Shown: in pieces, positions 1-9,007 of the stretch
Layout of the letters: every line of letters begins with the position of its first letter
Numbering within the stretch: position 1 is the first letter of the stretch
Virus record (IMG/VR): IMGVR_UViG_3300025151_000152
Coordinates: 1 to 33,724 of that record
Length of the DNA: 33,724 nucleotides
Reading direction: 5' to 3' (one strand)
Origin: a virus
Made by a program: the position numbers and the translations under genes
The notes under the pieces: generated by a model
Database searches by the model: none
The model's input: the letters and a program-made list of their open reading frames with translations, nothing else
Told to the model about the DNA's origin: nothing

Positions 1-1454
1 CTGACGGCTTTGGAGTGGGCCTAACCGCTGCTCGAGGCTTCATTCAAGACAAGCGAGATGCGGAATACCAGCAAGCCAAACTTGATGCGGACGCAGAAGA
101 AGCTCGACTGACTGCGGATTTCAGATCAAAGCAGCTGGACAACGAGGCTACGCGCATCCGCTTGCAAGGCGAAGAAAACGCGGCTGCTGAGCAATTTAGA
201 GCTGATCAAAGAGCTGCCGCCTCCGCTGAGAGCATAGCCGAAGCAGAGGCAAGAACAGCCAGAGCTGAAGCCGAAGCTGGCCTGAGAGCAGTTCAATTAT
301 CAGCAGCAGAAAAAGCAGAAGCCGTCGCTCAAGGGCAGCTGGACGCTCAAACGAGAGAGCAAAAAAACACAGCAGCTCTCGAGTCCATAGCTCAGCTTGA
401 TCTGCTCATTAAGCGCGCCCAGCAAACCGGAACTCAACCCGATTTAGAGATGATCAATACGCTGATAGGCAACACTGCTGACACTAAATTTGATCTCTCC
501 ACGATCTTGGGCGCCGATTACCAAAACGACATTGCCAATCTTACCTCTGTCATAAGGGAGCAGCTAAGCAGCGGACAGATGCTCGACACATCAGATCCCA
601 GGATCCTTGCCGGGGCTGATGCTTTAGTCAACGCAAATGGCGGAACCATGATTGGTCGTACCGTCGATAGCACGTTTGTAAACGCGCCCGAAGAGTATCA
701 GGACGGAAACTATCGCGTCGTTTCTAGAGAGGCTACTGGCATCGACATTAAAGAGGGTGCTGATGGCCTGATGTTTTCTTCAGACGTCCTCGTCACGCTG
801 GAGCGCAAAGACGCGCCGGGTCAGTTTTATCACTACATAGCGCCGATGACGGACGGAAGAGTCGCCGGATCAACACAGCGTGCTCAGGTTCCCATCAATC
901 AGATCATAGATGGCATGGGTGGCACCGCGATTCTTATCGACACTCTCAACAGAGATATGGCGCCCGTTGTTCGTGCAGCAAAAATCGATCAGATGGGCGG
1001 CGATAGTGCGTTCCGTTCAGCAGTAAATAGCGAAATAGAGAGCATGGTTGCCGTGATGGAGGCCTCCCCCAGCTCTCGCACTTACATGGGCAGCAAAACC
1101 AACGAAGAGCTGTTGCAGTCCCCAGATGACATACGTCGCATTGCTGAAGACAGGGCCCTGGGTCTTGGTCGGAAGACAGAAAGGTTTGGGGATCAAGCGA
1201 AGCAAGGCCTTCTTGAAACGCAAGCGATCATAGATACGCCTCTTCAAGCTTTTAAGGTAGCAGGCCCTGACGGCAGGCCCACCAAAACTATGGAGCTTTC
1301 TGACAACGAAATTTTTGAACTAGCGTCAACTTTAGATGATGGAGGTATCACTGAAAAAACAAGAGAAATGCTCAGAGATATTGCCAGAAGAAAAGGGGCA
1401 ATCGATACGAATAGACGCCTTTTCGGAAGAATGGCGCGAGCTAATAATAGGTAA
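1..1454 (+). CDS. Internal virion / coiled-coil protein, 5' end outside window
   Basis: The frame is open from the left edge, so the true start is upstream; the first in-window start-like codon is a GTG at 15 and at least 480 residues are visible. The first ~115 visible residues are almost pure Ala/Glu/Gln/Arg/Lys heptad-like sequence, a long coiled coil. The remainder is a mixed globular region with no motif I recognise. It sits 8 bp upstream of the giant polyvalent gene, which is where T7-like phages place internal core or ejection proteins. I infer a virion-internal or ejection role from position and coiled-coil content only. A tail-fibre-proximal structural protein is an alternative. Confidence 0.75.
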   Translation, partial: DGFGVGLTAARGFIQDKRDAEYQQAKLDADAEEARLTADFRSKQLDNEATRIRLQGEENAAAEQFRADQRAAASAESIAEAEARTARAEAEAGLRAVQLSAAEKAEAVAQGQLDAQTREQKNTAALESIAQLDLLIKRAQQTGTQPDLEMINTLIGNTADTKFDLSTILGADYQNDIANLTSVIREQLSSGQMLDTSDPRILAGADALVNANGGTMIGRTVDSTFVNAPEEYQDGNYRVVSREATGIDIKEGADGLMFSSDVLVTLERKDAPGQFYHYIAPMTDGRVAGSTQRAQVPINQIIDGMGGTAILIDTLNRDMAPVVRAAKIDQMGGDSAFRSAVNSEIESMVAVMEASPSSRTYMGSKTNEELLQSPDDIRRIAEDRALGLGRKTERFGDQAKQGLLETQAIIDTPLQAFKVAGPDGRPTKTMELSDNEIFELASTLDDGGITEKTREMLRDIARRKGAIDTNRRLFGRMARANNR

Positions 1455-1462
1455 CGGGCAAA

Positions 1463-4400
1463 ATGCCACTAGCCACCTACCGACCCGGCGATAGCCGCGG
1501 ATTCGCCCAGAAAGAAGAGGAGAAAGACGAGGATCTTCTTCAGTTTGGGGAGGGCCTTTCTGCCGGCTGGGATACAACCATTGGCACACTTGCTGGCGTC
1601 CGGTCTTTATTTAATACCCTCACTGGTGACGAAGCAGAGGCGATTGAGTACATGGGCTATGCCCGTGATCGCTTCCAGCAGGCTGCTGAATCCGGCGGAA
1701 CGGTCACACAGCTTGATGATATTGAGGGGGTGGGCGATGTTGTCCGCTGGGCCTCTTATTCAGCTGGAACAATACTCCCCTCCATAGCAACGAGCATTGC
1801 TGGCGGTGGTGTTGTTGGTGCAGCCGCGCAAGCTTTAGCTAAAAGGCGAATCAAGGACGAGGTCAGAAAAGAAGTAATTGATTCGTTTGAGGGCAAGGTT
1901 AAAGAAAGCGTCAAAAATCGGCGCATTCGTGAAGTCCTAGATGCCAGAACGCAGACTGCTCGCAGGGGTGGCCAGATTGGTGGCGCTATGGCGGCTTCAA
2001 CTGCACAAAATACTGGCGCTACGTTCGTCGATATCTACGAAGAAACTGGCATCGAGGCGCCTGATGTGGCGCTTGCTGCTGGTGTGGTTTCTGGAGCACT
2101 AGACTCTCTTGTTCCCCTTGCGGTGCTGAAGAGGGTGATGCCCGGCAGCACGTTCGCAAAATTTAAAGATGAGCTCGCAGACAAAGTCGTTCAGAACGGG
2201 GGCGTAACAAGGCGCATCCTCCAAGAGGCAGTTAAAAACGGTAGCGGTGAAGGCCTGACGGAAGCCGCTCAGGAGCTCATACAGGCCACTGCAGTGGGGA
2301 TGATGAGGAACGATCCTCAAGGCGGGTTTGCAGAATATTTTGACGAGCTGATGAATCCTACTACCGAGGATTTAGGCAGTCGCCTGATGAATGCTGCCGC
2401 TGTCGGCTTCCTTGGCGGCGGTGTTACGGGTGGCGCTTCGGGGTTCTTTAAAGGCGAGCCCACGAAAACCGAGGATCCGAAGGCGCCCCCGGTTGATCGC
2501 CCCGATGAGACCGCAGAAACAGATGCTGAGGCTGATGATACTGAGGCCCCCACTCTCGACAGCCTGACTGGGGCAGCGGCAAGAATGGCTCAGCAGTCGG
2601 CCAGAGCCGGCGCCAGAGAAGAGCTGGATGCGCAGGGCCGCAGAAAAATTGAAGGGCGGGAAGAAAGGAATGAACAGCGCCTACAAGTCACCCTCAGAAA
2701 TGTAGGTGAAGGCAGACGGGTAGCTGCTGAACGTATTCCGCAAAGCCTGCTTGAAACTGGCAATGTAACTCCTGAAGAAAATGCCGCAGCTGCTCAGGAA
2801 TACGAAGAGAACAAGCCCCAGGTCATAGAGCCACAGGTAGAAGTAAAGCCTCTCAATGTGAACTATGACCCAGAGACTGATGAGTTCACGTCTCGAGGCA
2901 AAAGATTTAAGTATCTCAGCACGCTGTCTGACGATCAGGGCCGGCCCGAAAAAATTGTTGCCCGGGATCTGCAGAACGGGAAGGAAAAAACATTCCGCAG
3001 CCAGCGCTTGCTTCAGTCTCTTACTCAGGCCAGAGAAGGCAGGGTAGATCCGCCCAGTGACGCAGCGACCAAGTTCGCTGATGTGCTTCAGTTCGATGCC
3101 ATGCCGGCTGCTATTCAGCAGGCTGTCCTCGATGACGCTGATGCGGTCGTTTCTGATGACGATACGGTTGATCTTGCCACGATGGTGCAGGCTGCTCAGA
3201 AAGCCGGTCTGTCTCAGGATCTGATTGACCGCACAAAAGCTATCGCAGAGCGTCAGCAAACCAGAACTTTAGACTCGGAACAGCGATTCACCGAAAAGGA
3301 TGAATGGCGTGAGTATCAAGGCCCAATTGCCCCTCGCTCAATTCCTCTCGAGCAGCGTCAGGCAGAGGCTGGTCAAGACGCGGCGGACAAAGTAAGAGGA
3401 TCTATAGGCTCCCGGGGTTTCAGTGTCCAACTCGGCTCCCCTCTAACGCTACGAGGCATAAAGCAGTTTGATCCAGACGACGTTGTCGATGCTGAGATCG
3501 AATATGCCATCTATGATTTGCTCGACGCCGGCTTGCCCACTCAGGTTTTCGATTACCTGAAGAGGCTGGCATTTCACGATGAAGACGGTGACCTAGTTAG
3601 AGTTTCCGGCTTGGCCACCAGCCAGGGCATCTCGCTTTCTAGCGCCATATTGGATCAGGTAAAAAAGGGCACCGCTGGCAGACAGCTGCGTTGGTCTTTG
3701 TCTCATGAGATGTGGCACATCCTAGACAAAAACCTAAACATAGCAGCCAGCTTGGCGCCGTTTAAGGCAACTGTTTCATTTGAAAGCCAGACCATAGATG
3801 CCGGTGATGTCGTCGCTGAGCTATATGAAAACTATCTGAACGAGACAGAGCTCGGAAAGGTCTTTATATATCCATTCCACTGGGTCAATGAAGCGGTGAC
3901 TGCAGGCGAAGGTGATCCCGCAGCACTCGAGCAAATGATTCAAGAGGAAGTATTCGCGCAGCTGGGTGCGATTTATCTGAGCAACCCTGAGCTGGTACAA
4001 TCATTAGCGCCAAGCGCATTCGAGGCAATGCAGGCAATCGCTGAGAACCCAGCGCTGCCGCAGCTTGTAGGAGCAAGAGATGCCGTTACTCAAGATACAA
4101 GAACCGAAGCTCAGCCCGACCCTGCAGGAGTACCGGGAGAAGTTCGGGCACCTGCCGTCGCCAGAAGCGATGAAGTTCCAGACGACGGAAGAGGTGGAGA
4201 CGCTGGCGTCGGTGGCGTTGCGCAGGGAGAAGCCGGTGAAGGACTGGGCGGAGAGGCCGACACGCAAGACGGGGACGGTGACAGACCTTCTGTTCCAGAA
4301 GTAGAGCGACCCGCACCCACCCCACCATCTGAAGAAGAGTTCTCGCCTGACGAGCTAAGGCGCCTGCTCACAGGCGTTCAAGATGTAAACGAGTTTACTG

Positions 4401-7400
4401 TCGCTGATTTGCGGCGAGTCCTGTCTGGGCTTGAAGCCCTCTCTCCAACTCAAGAAGAGTTCACGGTCTCCGATCTTCAGCAGCTGTTGTCAGGAGTTCA
4501 GCAGCGTGACGAGTTTACGACTGATGATCTGCTTCAACTGCTTGGGGGTGACAGCCCAGAATCTCCAGCCATGATGCGGCGCCGGGGCCCTACGGGGCGC
4601 CCCTATCAAGGCTTGCCGGCTAACGAAACTCTTGGCGGAGAAGATCGAGTGCAAACCTCGTTGCCTAACGGCACCAGGCTGGGCGAGAAAATTTATGAAA
4701 TAGGTGCTCCAGAAGATTACTCAATCGGAATAGACAGAATCCTGACGGATACGTCGAAGGTTCCGCTGGTTTCAAAGCTGAAAACCGCTGTCGAGGGGTA
4801 CGACTTCTTCACCCCATCTCGAGCTGACTTAACCGCCGAAGAAACCATTGAAGAATTTAAGACGCACATGGTGGAAAACCTTGTCTGGCTGCATGACCAA
4901 ATGGATCCTGCGCTTCGAGACGAGGCGAAACAGTGGTACGACGGCGCCAGAAAACAGGTAGATATCTGGGTAGATCGATACGGGCTGGAGCCGCGTCAGG
5001 TTGCTGCGGTAATTGCAAACCTTTCCCCGCAAAAAGACTGGTTTATGAACATGTCTTTGGCGGAGCGCATGATGGATGTCTACTCCTATCGTCAGGACTA
5101 TGTTGCTGATGCGGAGATGAACAAGGCGTTCACCCGAATAGTTCTCAAGGATGAAAAAGGCAAGCTGATTCAGGTATCGAAGATCGCTAAAGACACAACA
5201 AGGGAGGCGTTTAAGCTTCAAAGAGATATCTGGAAAAAAATAAAAAATCAGCCCCTGTCTGGTGTAGAAAAAGTTCTTAGCCCGGAAGAGGTAAGCCTTG
5301 GTCAAGCGATATGGATTCGCATGTATGACGAGGCGAATCACTCACGCTCATTCAGGGTTATGTCTCCGTCAGGTGAAATCATGGGCCCCTCTATGGGCAA
5401 GGATGGCCCCCAGAAAGTAGCTTGGGGATCGTTCACTGAAATCATGAAGGGCGTTCAGGTTCTCAGAGACGGATCCCTTGAAAGTGTTTCTCTCAGCCTT
5501 GGCGATGCTCATAAGGTAAGAAACTTCTACAACAACATCGTCGCTCCTGACTCTCAGTTGGGAGAGGTCACTATCGATACTCATGCCGTTGCAGCTGCTG
5601 TGTTCAAGCCTCTTTCAGCTAAGGGCTATGAGGTGTCTCATGCCTTCGGCTCTACACCCCCCAAAGATACTCTGGGCATACCAGAAGGGGTTGTCCGTGC
5701 CGGCGCGGGAAGCAGTGCCAAGTTTGGCGCGGGAGGCACATACGGCATTATTGCTGATGCATATCGAGAGGCCGCTGAGAAGCTTGGAATACTCCCCCGG
5801 CAGCTGCAAAGCATCACTTGGGAAGAGATCAGGGTTATCTTCCCCGCGTCATTTAAAGACGAAAAAGGTGTAAATCTTGGTAAGATAAACGAACTGTGGA
5901 CGCGCTATGCAAATGGCGAGCTGTCTGTAGATCAGGTAAGGGAGCAGGCGTATGGCCTCACAGGAACTAAAGGCAACAAGCCCGTCTGGGCCGATCGATC
6001 CGATGCTGTCGTTGATGAAGAGCAAGGGGATGGCACTTACAGCCGAGATGTATATAGCGCTGGCGTACCCGGACAAGGAGCTCGAGGACGTGATGTCCGA
6101 CCCAGAGGCGATGGCGATGCTGCCGGCGGAGCTGCAGCAGGAGGACTAGAGCGCCCCTCATTCCAACGCAGACTATCAGGACAGACTAAGTCATACGACG
6201 ACGCTGTCGCTGATGGCACCCGCCTGAACGGCGAGCCTAATACTAACGAACTCAATCTCGACGACGAGACTCGAGCAGAACTGACGCTGAAAAAGTGGCA
6301 GGACAAATACCTGACGGTTAAGAAGCTGCAGGAGCAAGCAAAAGAAATCCTGGGGGTAGATGAGCTACCAGAGCGCCTCAACATACACGGCGCCGAAACA
6401 TTAAGTCACGGCAAAATAAAAAATGACTATGACGGTCTCGAGGATAACTACGTCAAGCCGATTGGCGACATCCTCCGAGAGAACGACATCGACATGGACG
6501 ATGCCGCGCTTTACCTGATTGCCAAGCACGCCAAAGAGCGCAACGAATACATTGCCTCAATCAATGAATCGCTACCTGACGGTGGCTCTGGCCTAACCAC
6601 GGCAGCGGCTGCTGAGATCCTTGAAAACGCAGAGAACAAAGACGCGCTCGAAGAGATCGCCCAGCTTGTCTATGACATGCTCGAGGAGAACCGGAAGCGT
6701 ATGGCGGATGCTGGCCTGCTATCAGAAGACACCGTCGATGGATACCGGGAGCAGTATCAGTTCTACGTTCCGCTGAAGGGATTCGCGGCAATCACAGTGG
6801 TAGATGAAAACGGTGTTGAGCAAACCGTAAGAGAGCAATCTCCTGTATCTAGCGGCTCGACCGGGCGCGGATTCAGCATTACCGGGAAAGAAGTTTTCAA
6901 GGCGCTGGGCCGTGAAAGCAGGTCAGACAACCCGCTGCTGTATGCCTTGAAGGATACGGAAGAAAAGATTGTTCGATCCAGAAAGAATGAGGTGAGCCAG
7001 CGGTTCTTAGAGCTGGTGGATAGACTCGTCGCTCAAGGCACAAATGCGTTCAAGGTCTTCCGCCCCGGCGACGAATACCCAATGAAGCGCGTGGAAAAAA
7101 ATGGGCAGGTCGTTCAGGAGCGCATGAGCACCACAGACATGCGTAACGACACCATCGAAGGCACCAAAGATCCTAAGTACATGTCGGTCAAGGTAGACGG
7201 GGAAGAGGTATTCATAGAGATCAAGAGCCCCGCACTCAATCGCGCCATGCAGAACCTCGGTGCTCAGCAGTATGAGGCCACGTTCGAGGTGCTTAACAAG
7301 AGCACCACTGCGTTCCTGCAGAAGTTCCAGAACTTCCGGCGGAATATGCTGATCAACTACAACCCGAGCTGGTTCCTTATCAACCCGGTTAGAGATATCC

Positions 7401-9007
7401 AGACGGGAATCATGTTTAGCCTTGCTGAAGAAAGCAAAGAGGGCGGGCTGGTATACGGGGAAAACCTCACCGCGGACATTCTTAAAAACTATTTCCCGGC
7501 AGCGTTCGCATATCGCGCAAATCTAAGGGGCAAAAAAGGATCAGAGTACGACGGATACTTTGAGGAGTATCAGGCCTCTGGCGCTCCGACTGGGCAAACG
7601 CTGACCAGAGAGATCGAAGAGCAGCAGCAGCGACTGGAAAACATAATCAGCGAAGGCTCTATCAAGTCACGAGCCCGCGCTATGGCGGATTGGATCGAGG
7701 ACGCCAACACGGCAGCTGAGAACGCTGTGCGCTTCGCCGCATACATCGCTGCGCGTGAAAAGGGAGTAACCGTACAGAAGGCAGCATTGCTTGCCAAAAA
7801 CATGACGGTCAACTTCAACCGAAAGGGCGAGGCTTCATCAGCGGCGAACCTTTTCTATCTGTTCTTCAACGCTGCAGTTCAGGGCACCGACCAGATAGTA
7901 AAAGCTATGAGTGGCCGCAGCCCCACCGGAGGTTTGACCAAAGCTCAGATGGCCGGTATCGCTATCGCAACGTCGGCCTACGCCATTACCAAGTACAACA
8001 TCGAAGCAGCCGACGAAGATGACGACGGCGAGAGTCTTTACAACGATCTGTCTCCATACGACAAGTTGATGAGCTGGAATTACGTCAGGCCAGACGGCAA
8101 GACATTCTTCCAGATGCCGCTCCCATACGGGTACGGGCTCATCCACACAATCGGCAGGCTCGCTGCTGAATATGAACATGATGCTATTGACGGTGGCGAG
8201 GTAGCTGCAGAGCTCACCGCAGCGTTTGTGCATCACATGTTGCCACCGCCTTTAGGCTTCCTGGGAGCCCTTGGAACTGCCGACGACGCGACAGAGATTG
8301 CAAAGAGAGGATTCAACGATCTGGTTCCAGATATTTTTGAGTTCCCGGCAACTGTCGCGACGAACATGAATCACTTCGGGGCCCCTATTTATATAGAGGA
8401 CAACCCCCTTCTGCCTCCCGCTCCAGATTCGAGCAAGGCAAAGCGGAGCACTGAGAAGTTTTATCGGGACATCGCTGAGAGCATGAATGAGATAACCGGC
8501 GGCTCTCTCTACAGAACAGGCAGTGCAGACGTATCTCCAGACGTGTTGAAGTACGCGGTCGATTTCTTCGGTGGCGGTCTGGGGCGATTCATCACTCGCG
8601 GCGTTGATACCGCGATGATCAATAACAATGACGTTGATGAGGACGACCGCCCAATGGGTGAGTGGCCTATCTTCAGATACTTGTACGGCGAGCCATCTGC
8701 CTTCAACGACAAGCTCGAGTACTACGACAACATCAGAGACTCGCAAGAGGTCTTCAAAGAAAACGAAGGCACCACTGACGCAGAAGAAAGGGAGCGATTC
8801 CTGCAGCGCTTTGGCTCAGTAGCGCAGCTCGAGCCCCTGTACAAAGAAACCCAGAAGCAGCTTCGCGCCCTTCGTAAGAAGAAAAAACAAATTGAGAAGA
8901 CACAGAGCGATCCATCTCTGGCCTACACGCAGATCCAAAAGCTAGAGGCCGACATGGAAAAGCTCTATGACCAGTACAACAAGCGTTACCGCGAAGCGAC
9001 GAGGTAA
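1463..9007 (+). CDS. Giant polyvalent / internal virion protein (2514 aa) with zincin motif and LPD38-like region
   Basis: Multidomain protein of the kind ejected with phage DNA. Visible parts: glycine-rich hydrophobic segments near residues 95-125 and 308-330; a zinc-metallopeptidase signature HEMWH at 748-752; an Asp/Gly/Ala-rich linker at ~873-950; four degenerate copies of EFTxxDLxxLLsG at ~957-1030; a domain around 1110-1500 with SPQKDW at 1188-1193, resembling a family I recall as DUF7178; a second low-complexity linker at ~1497-1563; a helical region with NPVRD at 1974-1978 typical of LPD38; and a Lys/Glu/Gln-rich coiled coil at the C-terminus. The start ATG follows the previous stop by 8 bp with a weak GGGC-type ribosome site. 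Two small out-of-frame genes appear nested in the two linkers. Function is inferred: virion-packaged, delivering enzymatic domains at infection. The family labels are from memory. Confidence 0.85.
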   Translation: MPLATYRPGDSRGFAQKEEEKDEDLLQFGEGLSAGWDTTIGTLAGVRSLFNTLTGDEAEAIEYMGYARDRFQQAAESGGTVTQLDDIEGVGDVVRWASYSAGTILPSIATSIAGGGVVGAAAQALAKRRIKDEVRKEVIDSFEGKVKESVKNRRIREVLDARTQTARRGGQIGGAMAASTAQNTGATFVDIYEETGIEAPDVALAAGVVSGALDSLVPLAVLKRVMPGSTFAKFKDELADKVVQNGGVTRRILQEAVKNGSGEGLTEAAQELIQATAVGMMRNDPQGGFAEYFDELMNPTTEDLGSRLMNAAAVGFLGGGVTGGASGFFKGEPTKTEDPKAPPVDRPDETAETDAEADDTEAPTLDSLTGAAARMAQQSARAGAREELDAQGRRKIEGREERNEQRLQVTLRNVGEGRRVAAERIPQSLLETGNVTPEENAAAAQEYEENKPQVIEPQVEVKPLNVNYDPETDEFTSRGKRFKYLSTLSDDQGRPEKIVARDLQNGKEKTFRSQRLLQSLTQAREGRVDPPSDAATKFADVLQFDAMPAAIQQAVLDDADAVVSDDDTVDLATMVQAAQKAGLSQDLIDRTKAIAERQQTRTLDSEQRFTEKDEWREYQGPIAPRSIPLEQRQAEAGQDAADKVRGSIGSRGFSVQLGSPLTLRGIKQFDPDDVVDAEIEYAIYDLLDAGLPTQVFDYLKRLAFHDEDGDLVRVSGLATSQGISLSSAILDQVKKGTAGRQLRWSLSHEMWHILDKNLNIAASLAPFKATVSFESQTIDAGDVVAELYENYLNETELGKVFIYPFHWVNEAVTAGEGDPAALEQMIQEEVFAQLGAIYLSNPELVQSLAPSAFEAMQAIAENPALPQLVGARDAVTQDTRTEAQPDPAGVPGEVRAPAVARSDEVPDDGRGGDAGVGGVAQGEAGEGLGGEADTQDGDGDRPSVPEVERPAPTPPSEEEFSPDELRRLLTGVQDVNEFTVADLRRVLSGLEALSPTQEEFTVSDLQQLLSGVQQRDEFTTDDLLQLLGGDSPESPAMMRRRGPTGRPYQGLPANETLGGEDRVQTSLPNGTRLGEKIYEIGAPEDYSIGIDRILTDTSKVPLVSKLKTAVEGYDFFTPSRADLTAEETIEEFKTHMVENLVWLHDQMDPALRDEAKQWYDGARKQVDIWVDRYGLEPRQVAAVIANLSPQKDWFMNMSLAERMMDVYSYRQDYVADAEMNKAFTRIVLKDEKGKLIQVSKIAKDTTREAFKLQRDIWKKIKNQPLSGVEKVLSPEEVSLGQAIWIRMYDEANHSRSFRVMSPSGEIMGPSMGKDGPQKVAWGSFTEIMKGVQVLRDGSLESVSLSLGDAHKVRNFYNNIVAPDSQLGEVTIDTHAVAAAVFKPLSAKGYEVSHAFGSTPPKDTLGIPEGVVRAGAGSSAKFGAGGTYGIIADAYREAAEKLGILPRQLQSITWEEIRVIFPASFKDEKGVNLGKINELWTRYANGELSVDQVREQAYGLTGTKGNKPVWADRSDAVVDEEQGDGTYSRDVYSAGVPGQGARGRDVRPRGDGDAAGGAAAGGLERPSFQRRLSGQTKSYDDAVADGTRLNGEPNTNELNLDDETRAELTLKKWQDKYLTVKKLQEQAKEILGVDELPERLNIHGAETLSHGKIKNDYDGLEDNYVKPIGDILRENDIDMDDAALYLIAKHAKERNEYIASINESLPDGGSGLTTAAAAEILENAENKDALEEIAQLVYDMLEENRKRMADAGLLSEDTVDGYREQYQFYVPLKGFAAITVVDENGVEQTVREQSPVSSGSTGRGFSITGKEVFKALGRESRSDNPLLYALKDTEEKIVRSRKNEVSQRFLELVDRLVAQGTNAFKVFRPGDEYPMKRVEKNGQVVQERMSTTDMRNDTIEGTKDPKYMSVKVDGEEVFIEIKSPALNRAMQNLGAQQYEATFEVLNKSTTAFLQKFQNFRRNMLINYNPSWFLINPVRDIQTGIMFSLAEESKEGGLVYGENLTADILKNYFPAAFAYRANLRGKKGSEYDGYFEEYQASGAPTGQTLTREIEEQQQRLENIISEGSIKSRARAMADWIEDANTAAENAVRFAAYIAAREKGVTVQKAALLAKNMTVNFNRKGEASSAANLFYLFFNAAVQGTDQIVKAMSGRSPTGGLTKAQMAGIAIATSAYAITKYNIEAADEDDDGESLYNDLSPYDKLMSWNYVRPDGKTFFQMPLPYGYGLIHTIGRLAAEYEHDAIDGGEVAAELTAAFVHHMLPPPLGFLGALGTADDATEIAKRGFNDLVPDIFEFPATVATNMNHFGAPIYIEDNPLLPPAPDSSKAKRSTEKFYRDIAESMNEITGGSLYRTGSADVSPDVLKYAVDFFGGGLGRFITRGVDTAMINNNDVDEDDRPMGEWPIFRYLYGEPSAFNDKLEYYDNIRDSQEVFKENEGTTDAEERERFLQRFGSVAQLEPLYKETQKQLRALRKKKKQIEKTQSDPSLAYTQIQKLEADMEKLYDQYNKRYREATR
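4080..4304 (+). CDS. Nested small gene, out of frame inside the giant gene (74 aa)
   Basis: The frame is shifted relative to the giant gene and lies entirely within its low-complexity linker (giant residues ~873-948). The ATG has a textbook AGGAG at 4069-4073, 6 nt upstream. The product has an ordinary globular-looking composition, with segments such as EYREKFGHLPSPEAMKF and EEVETLASVALRREKPVKDW, and its codons look GC-rich at third positions. The overlapping giant frame reads as Gly/Asp/Arg/Ala-rich filler. It resembles short stand-alone phage proteins with an YRxRFGxxPP-like opening, but this is recollection, not a search. Function unknown. The alternative is a chance open frame or a remnant of a gene that became fused into the giant frame. 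Confidence 0.6.
   Translation: MPLLKIQEPKLSPTLQEYREKFGHLPSPEAMKFQTTEEVETLASVALRREKPVKDWAERPTRKTGTVTDLLFQK
5952..6149 (+). CDS. Second nested small gene, out of frame inside the giant gene (65 aa)
   Basis: It lies in the second low-complexity linker of the giant protein (residues ~1497-1563), in a different frame. The sequence AAGGGAG at 5938-5944 precedes the ATG by 7 nt, a good ribosome site. The product contains MLSLMKSKGMALTAEMYIAL followed by an acidic, Leu/Met-rich tail, and looks like a compact phage protein. The giant frame across the same bases reads as a Gly/Arg/Asp/Ala string with little fold potential. This arrangement mirrors the first nested frame, which makes chance less likely. 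Function unknown; no motif recognised. Confidence 0.58.
   Translation: MASQELKATSPSGPIDPMLSLMKSKGMALTAEMYIALAYPDKELEDVMSDPEAMAMLPAELQQED

Follow-up and report, generated by a model that had tools for sequence, protein, structure and literature searches.

Does a complete ORF lying out of frame in the linker of a giant phage gene encode a protein of its own, or is it an accident of the letters around it? The question is raised by IMGVR_UViG_3300025151_000152, a virus record of 33.7 kb, analysed here as one stretch of 33,724 nucleotides (the window; Table 1). Judged from the genes recognised in it, which include those for an integrase, a RecE-like exonuclease, a helicase, a terminase, a portal/adaptor and the major head protein, the source is a temperate podovirus-like phage. 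Because the head gene runs past the end of the window, the record probably lacks part of the genome or was opened inside the late region. The first-pass annotation had left two readings of the ORF: an overprinted, separately translated phage protein, or an ancestral stand-alone gene absorbed into the giant frame. We conclude that it is almost certainly a real gene, its translation being inferred from comparative evidence. As the best explanation of the whole, to which we give a probability of about 55%, we propose an overprinted gene that is translated by internal initiation and whose product partners the upstream zincin domain in trans.

Table 1. Features of the locus in window coordinates.
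Feature	Position	Strand	Basis
Giant polyvalent protein gene, 2514 aa, with zincin, DUF7178 and LPD38 domains	1463..9007	+	open frame, domain searches
Zincin-like metallopeptidase domain of the giant (HEMWH 3704-3718, EVFAQ 3947-3961)	3374..4048	+	alignment, AlphaFold, fold matches, co-occurrence
Gly/Asp/Glu/Ala-rich giant linker, overlapped by the nested gene	4049..4304	+	translation, phase-wise divergence
Shine-Dalgarno AGGAG, 6 nt before the nested ATG (spacer CAAGAG)	4069..4073	+	sequence; Shine-Dalgarno conservation in homologues
Nested (overprinted) gene, 74 aa, phase +1 relative to the giant; start ATG at 4080, stop TAG at 4302-4304	4080..4304	+	complete ORF, homologues, giant third-position divergence
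Integrase, RecE-like exonuclease, helicase, terminase, portal/adaptor and head genes	11211-33724		

The giant gene product carries DUF7178 (E 2.9e-27) and LPD38 (E 1.1e-28) in addition to the zincin domain, and meets the definition of a polyvalent protein, i.e., a phage protein of great length in which several known but unrelated domains are combined. That it is packed in the virion and injected is inferred from its family. Its neighbours look like late genes of a podovirus-like phage. LPD38-bearing giants exist among cultured phages (32% identity), and no match was found in cultured phages to the N-terminal part, the half of the giant that bears the zincin and the nested gene. Across the nested ORF the giant frame reads GARDAVTQDTRTEAQPDPAGVPGEVRAPAVARSDEVPDDGRGGDAGVGGVAQGEAGEGLGGEADTQDGDGDRPSVP, a translation rich in Gly, Asp, Glu and Ala that agrees with its initial description as filler.

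An overprinted gene should be a complete ORF wholly within another gene and in a different frame, should have its own translation signals, and should leave both frames conserved with less synonymous change in the host frame. The ORF at 4080-4304 within 1463-9007 has the first of these properties, and the complete 74-codon frame and the AGGAG 6 nt upstream of its ATG are present as first claimed. Its length alone is unremarkable: with the giant residues fixed and the codons resampled, the +1 frame remained open in about 22% of draws (median). What places the ORF beyond chance is not its length but its conservation, with real nested-nested alignment scores of 136-240 against a highest single score of 78 in simulations that kept the giant residues and resampled the codons.

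A search with the 74-residue product (query P0001) recovered four IMG/VR contigs at 61-65% identity. The first homologue set spans 46-65% identity, each member nested within a homologous giant. Profiles built from the first IMG/VR matches were used to recruit further homologues, and an HMM run over the fetched loci detected the nested gene in 163 loci representing 48 distinct proteins. In every one of these true homologues (163/163) the frame is open, in the same +1 phase, and inside a homologous giant gene. The search thus gave the outcome that had been named as support for a real gene, and the broken alternative frame that would have counted against it was not seen. The loci are not phylogenetically independent and several are repeat fetches of one contig, so that the 48 distinct proteins and the 55 contigs of the zincin scan described below are the fairer counts. 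All carriers found are uncultured contigs; cultured phages gave no match to the nested protein and plasmids (PLSDB) none to P0001. Sequence profiles of Pfam, PHROGs, NCBIfam, PADLOC and PDB gave nothing convincing, and the family was not represented in the libraries searched. Because gene finders as a rule pass over out-of-frame ORFs within long genes, it is missing from these libraries despite its presence in dozens of phage contigs. The only non-nested HMM match, in a Telmatospirillum protein (L161:5389-6636), was short, covered residues 202-245 of an unrelated in-frame protein, and was taken as chance; it contains a short stretch, TFGHEPSPEALRWKSTEHN, common to the nested family.

Selection on the two frames was followed along the giant gene in 40-codon windows of an alignment of 12 giants. 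Third-position divergence of the giant frame was 0.59-0.75 in every window outside the nested ORF and fell to 0.32 in 4103-4222 and 0.41 in 4223-4342. Giant third positions are nested second positions here, so the dip is the mark expected of a constrained nested protein, and the synonymous-site suppression that the initial reading had listed as a check is borne out (0.32 where about 0.6-0.7 is found elsewhere). The profile shows no further dip anywhere in 1463-9007 that would indicate a second hidden gene in another linker of the giant. Among close pairs, changes at nested positions 1, 2 and 3 numbered 501, 455 and 796, making the wobble position the most variable; over all pairs, nested third positions diverged by 0.48, less than the flanking wobble positions. 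A maximum at position 3 that nevertheless remains below ordinary wobble divergence implies that both readings are constrained, and the host frame shows the reduced synonymous change expected of an overprinted pair at 4080-4304. The GC-rich nested third positions that had been remarked on are real (G 52%, T 6%), but they do not amount to independent codon-usage evidence, because these bases largely coincide with first positions in the giant frame, hence their being G-rich and T-poor.

The start region provides the remaining property, a set of dedicated translation signals. Of the 37 nested starts in the first set, 33 have a Shine-Dalgarno core upstream, compared with 9.7% of out-of-frame ATGs in the same giants. 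The alignment opens with a start codon, GTG in a few, in every full-length row and in 36 of the 37 rows overall. The mRNA around the start is less structured than elsewhere in the giants (mean +4.9 kcal/mol). Base composition accounts for part of this; compared with shuffled versions of the same sequence, the excess is modest, although positive in 26/32. Like the loci themselves, these tallies lack phylogenetic independence. On these signals the nested gene is very probably translated by internal initiation, again as deduced from comparison. Together with the uniform position and phase and the suppression of synonymous change, the conserved Shine-Dalgarno and start codon give strong support to the first of the two original readings, an overprinted and separately translated phage protein.

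Could the frame be conserved for another reason? Ribosomes might reach it by frameshifting, to give a truncated giant with an alternative C-terminus in which the zincin is joined to the nested domain; the constant phase in all 163 loci and the start of the nested frame soon after the zincin would fit such a product. It would not account for the conserved Shine-Dalgarno and start codon, and entry from upstream is disfavoured because in L012 and L013 an in-frame stop immediately precedes the nested ATG. Several other homologues have such a stop 3-15 nt 5´ of the start, leaving almost no room to enter, and we regard frameshifting as very improbable. An RNA or DNA element in the linker, with the open frame incidental and no protein made, could likewise constrain giant third positions in the overlap. 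Such an element predicts neither conservation at the level of nested amino acids, with close-pair changes concentrated at nested position 3, nor a frame that is open in every homologue and equipped with a ribosome-binding site, and we give it next to no credence. Under the preferred internal initiation, the conserved Shine-Dalgarno and the conserved start codon would direct ribosomes to begin within the giant mRNA; translation in the +1 frame would yield a protein of about 75 residues, small and mostly helical, and the giant frame would read the same bases as a flexible linker.

The strict link of the nested gene to one metallopeptidase domain was absent from the first reading. The domain directly upstream has an AlphaFold model with pLDDT 92.7, and its alignment (A7) shows invariant HExxHxxD and ExFAQ; with an HEXXH helix and a downstream Glu helix in a zincin fold, it qualifies as a zincin. 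The best solved matches are of the ATLF/PPEP type (Z about 11 over 150-177 residues). The likeness is one of fold only, at 16-22% identity and a Foldseek E no better than 0.007; some members also match Pfam ATLF and M90 weakly. The resemblance belongs to the giant's domain, not to the nested protein. In the 37 first-set homologues HExxH lies 118-152 codons 5´ of the nested gene and is followed by ExFAQ, with the exception of L008, a cut contig and the only one without an upstream HExxH, and L012, where a module intervenes and the distance is 243 codons. A scan seeded with the zincin only returned 56 contigs, of which 55 carry the nested gene and the last stops 2 bases past the domain; an earlier zincin scan had found it in 23/23. 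More than 50 uncultured phages thus keep the gene beside one protease domain, for which reason we consider it real and missed by ordinary annotation.

A scan seeded with LPD38, in the C-terminal region and independent of both zincin and nested gene, found the latter in 27 of 80 contigs. The others are cut before the site or have different middle modules without this zincin, and intact giants with other middle modules are without both. Between L003 and L019/L021, the giants are 54-56% and 68-69% identical at their ends and differ in the middle block; L003 has this zincin and the nested gene, and L019/L021, whose zincin is another one with HEGTH, lack the nested gene. Pairwise distances of the nested protein track those of the zincin (r 0.88) and of the giant N-terminal part (r 0.88) equally, and the correlation therefore gives no ground for preferring the zincin as the partner. 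Possession of the N-terminal part does not suffice, because the nested gene is missing from giants that have that part but not this zincin. The main caution is that the co-occurrence could reflect physical linkage, both elements lying in one swapped block. Modules 3´ of the nested gene (window 4343 onward and homologues) vary strongly among giants, which places the gene near an exchange boundary. By eye, the module at L012:1400-2702, which sits there between the zincin and a still-intact nested gene, is found 3´ of the nested gene in other giants.

The model of the nested product is small and helical (pLDDT 75.6, pTM 0.53), and fold searches with it gave no significant match. Its role has to be inferred from strict co-occurrence in the absence of binding or activity data, and on that basis we put a dedicated partnership with the upstream zincin at even odds. 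Linkage in a shared exchange block would also allow the product to be a small virion or morphogenesis protein, e.g., a packaging escort or minor internal virion protein, next to the zincin by adjacency only. The setting in a giant gene of a podovirus-like phage beside apparent late genes, the equally good fit of nested distances to the N-terminal part and the strongly variable modules downstream all leave room for this. We nevertheless find it rather unlikely, in that giants with homologous ends and another middle block do without the gene, which is thus not needed for packaging giants generally, and that each of the 55 contigs that could be evaluated in the zincin scan keeps it beside that domain. 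Action away from the giant protein, e.g., on the host in late infection, with the linker a chance housing, could be imagined for a widely conserved protein without known relatives; that the gene was never seen free-standing or in giants lacking this zincin makes such a role quite unlikely. A dedicated partner made from the same mRNA is favoured because it fits the strict co-occurrence. As to origin rather than function, a folded, helical prediction (pLDDT 75.6) over a linker resembling disordered filler might suggest that a stand-alone gene was absorbed into the giant frame, the second of the original readings. We found no support for it: searches of IMG/VR, GTDB contigs, INPHARED and PLSDB (the last with P0001 only) recovered no free-standing homologue, and codon usage, atypical in both frames, gives no indication of their relative age. 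Distant relatives may escape pattern-seeded scans, and absorption stays conceivable but unlikely; de novo birth in the linker is the simpler reading.

If the nested product is indeed a trans partner of the zincin, it most likely works as an inhibitor, a regulator or an assembly partner, a proposal whose chances we see as evenly balanced. Our favoured guess is that the product inhibits or regulates the peptidase, restraining it or guiding its self-processing while the giant is synthesised and packed into the virion. A peptidase with its controller in another frame just downstream would form an overprinted effector-control pair that moves between giant injected proteins as a single block of DNA. 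Control is inferred here, and we offer this only tentatively, as somewhat less than an even bet. Should the product control the adjacent peptidase, enzyme and controller would travel together, and the controller gene could not be lost without altering the linker of the giant protein.

Overprinted viral genes have been reviewed (PMC8227390). As in the cases treated there, a second protein lies wholly inside a longer gene in an alternative frame, and both are constrained; unlike them, the nested gene here occupies a linker of a giant multi-domain gene in a tailed dsDNA phage, beside a peptidase domain. The polyvalent proteins described from phages and conjugative elements (Iyer et al., 2017; PMC5512222) resemble the giant in being very long and in combining several unrelated domains, zincin-like metallopeptidase and LPD38 among them. 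The paper also notes a phage-type group with an Asp three residues after HEXXH, which is invariant in the present zincin as well, and proposes that zincins of this kind act after injection or serve to process the giant protein. A search of its text for the word "overlap" found no instance, and within the reach of that search it does not describe a partner encoded separately and nested in a polyvalent gene; titles and abstracts of the open-access papers searched yielded no account of a gene nested inside one for a polyvalent protein. In view of these findings, a search for hidden genes in the linkers of other giant phage proteins seems worthwhile.

Immediately 5´ of the giant gene, at window 15-1454, lies an ORF of 479 aa without a Pfam or PHROGs match. 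An ORF of comparable length (514 codons) is also found upstream of the giant in one of the other loci (L160).
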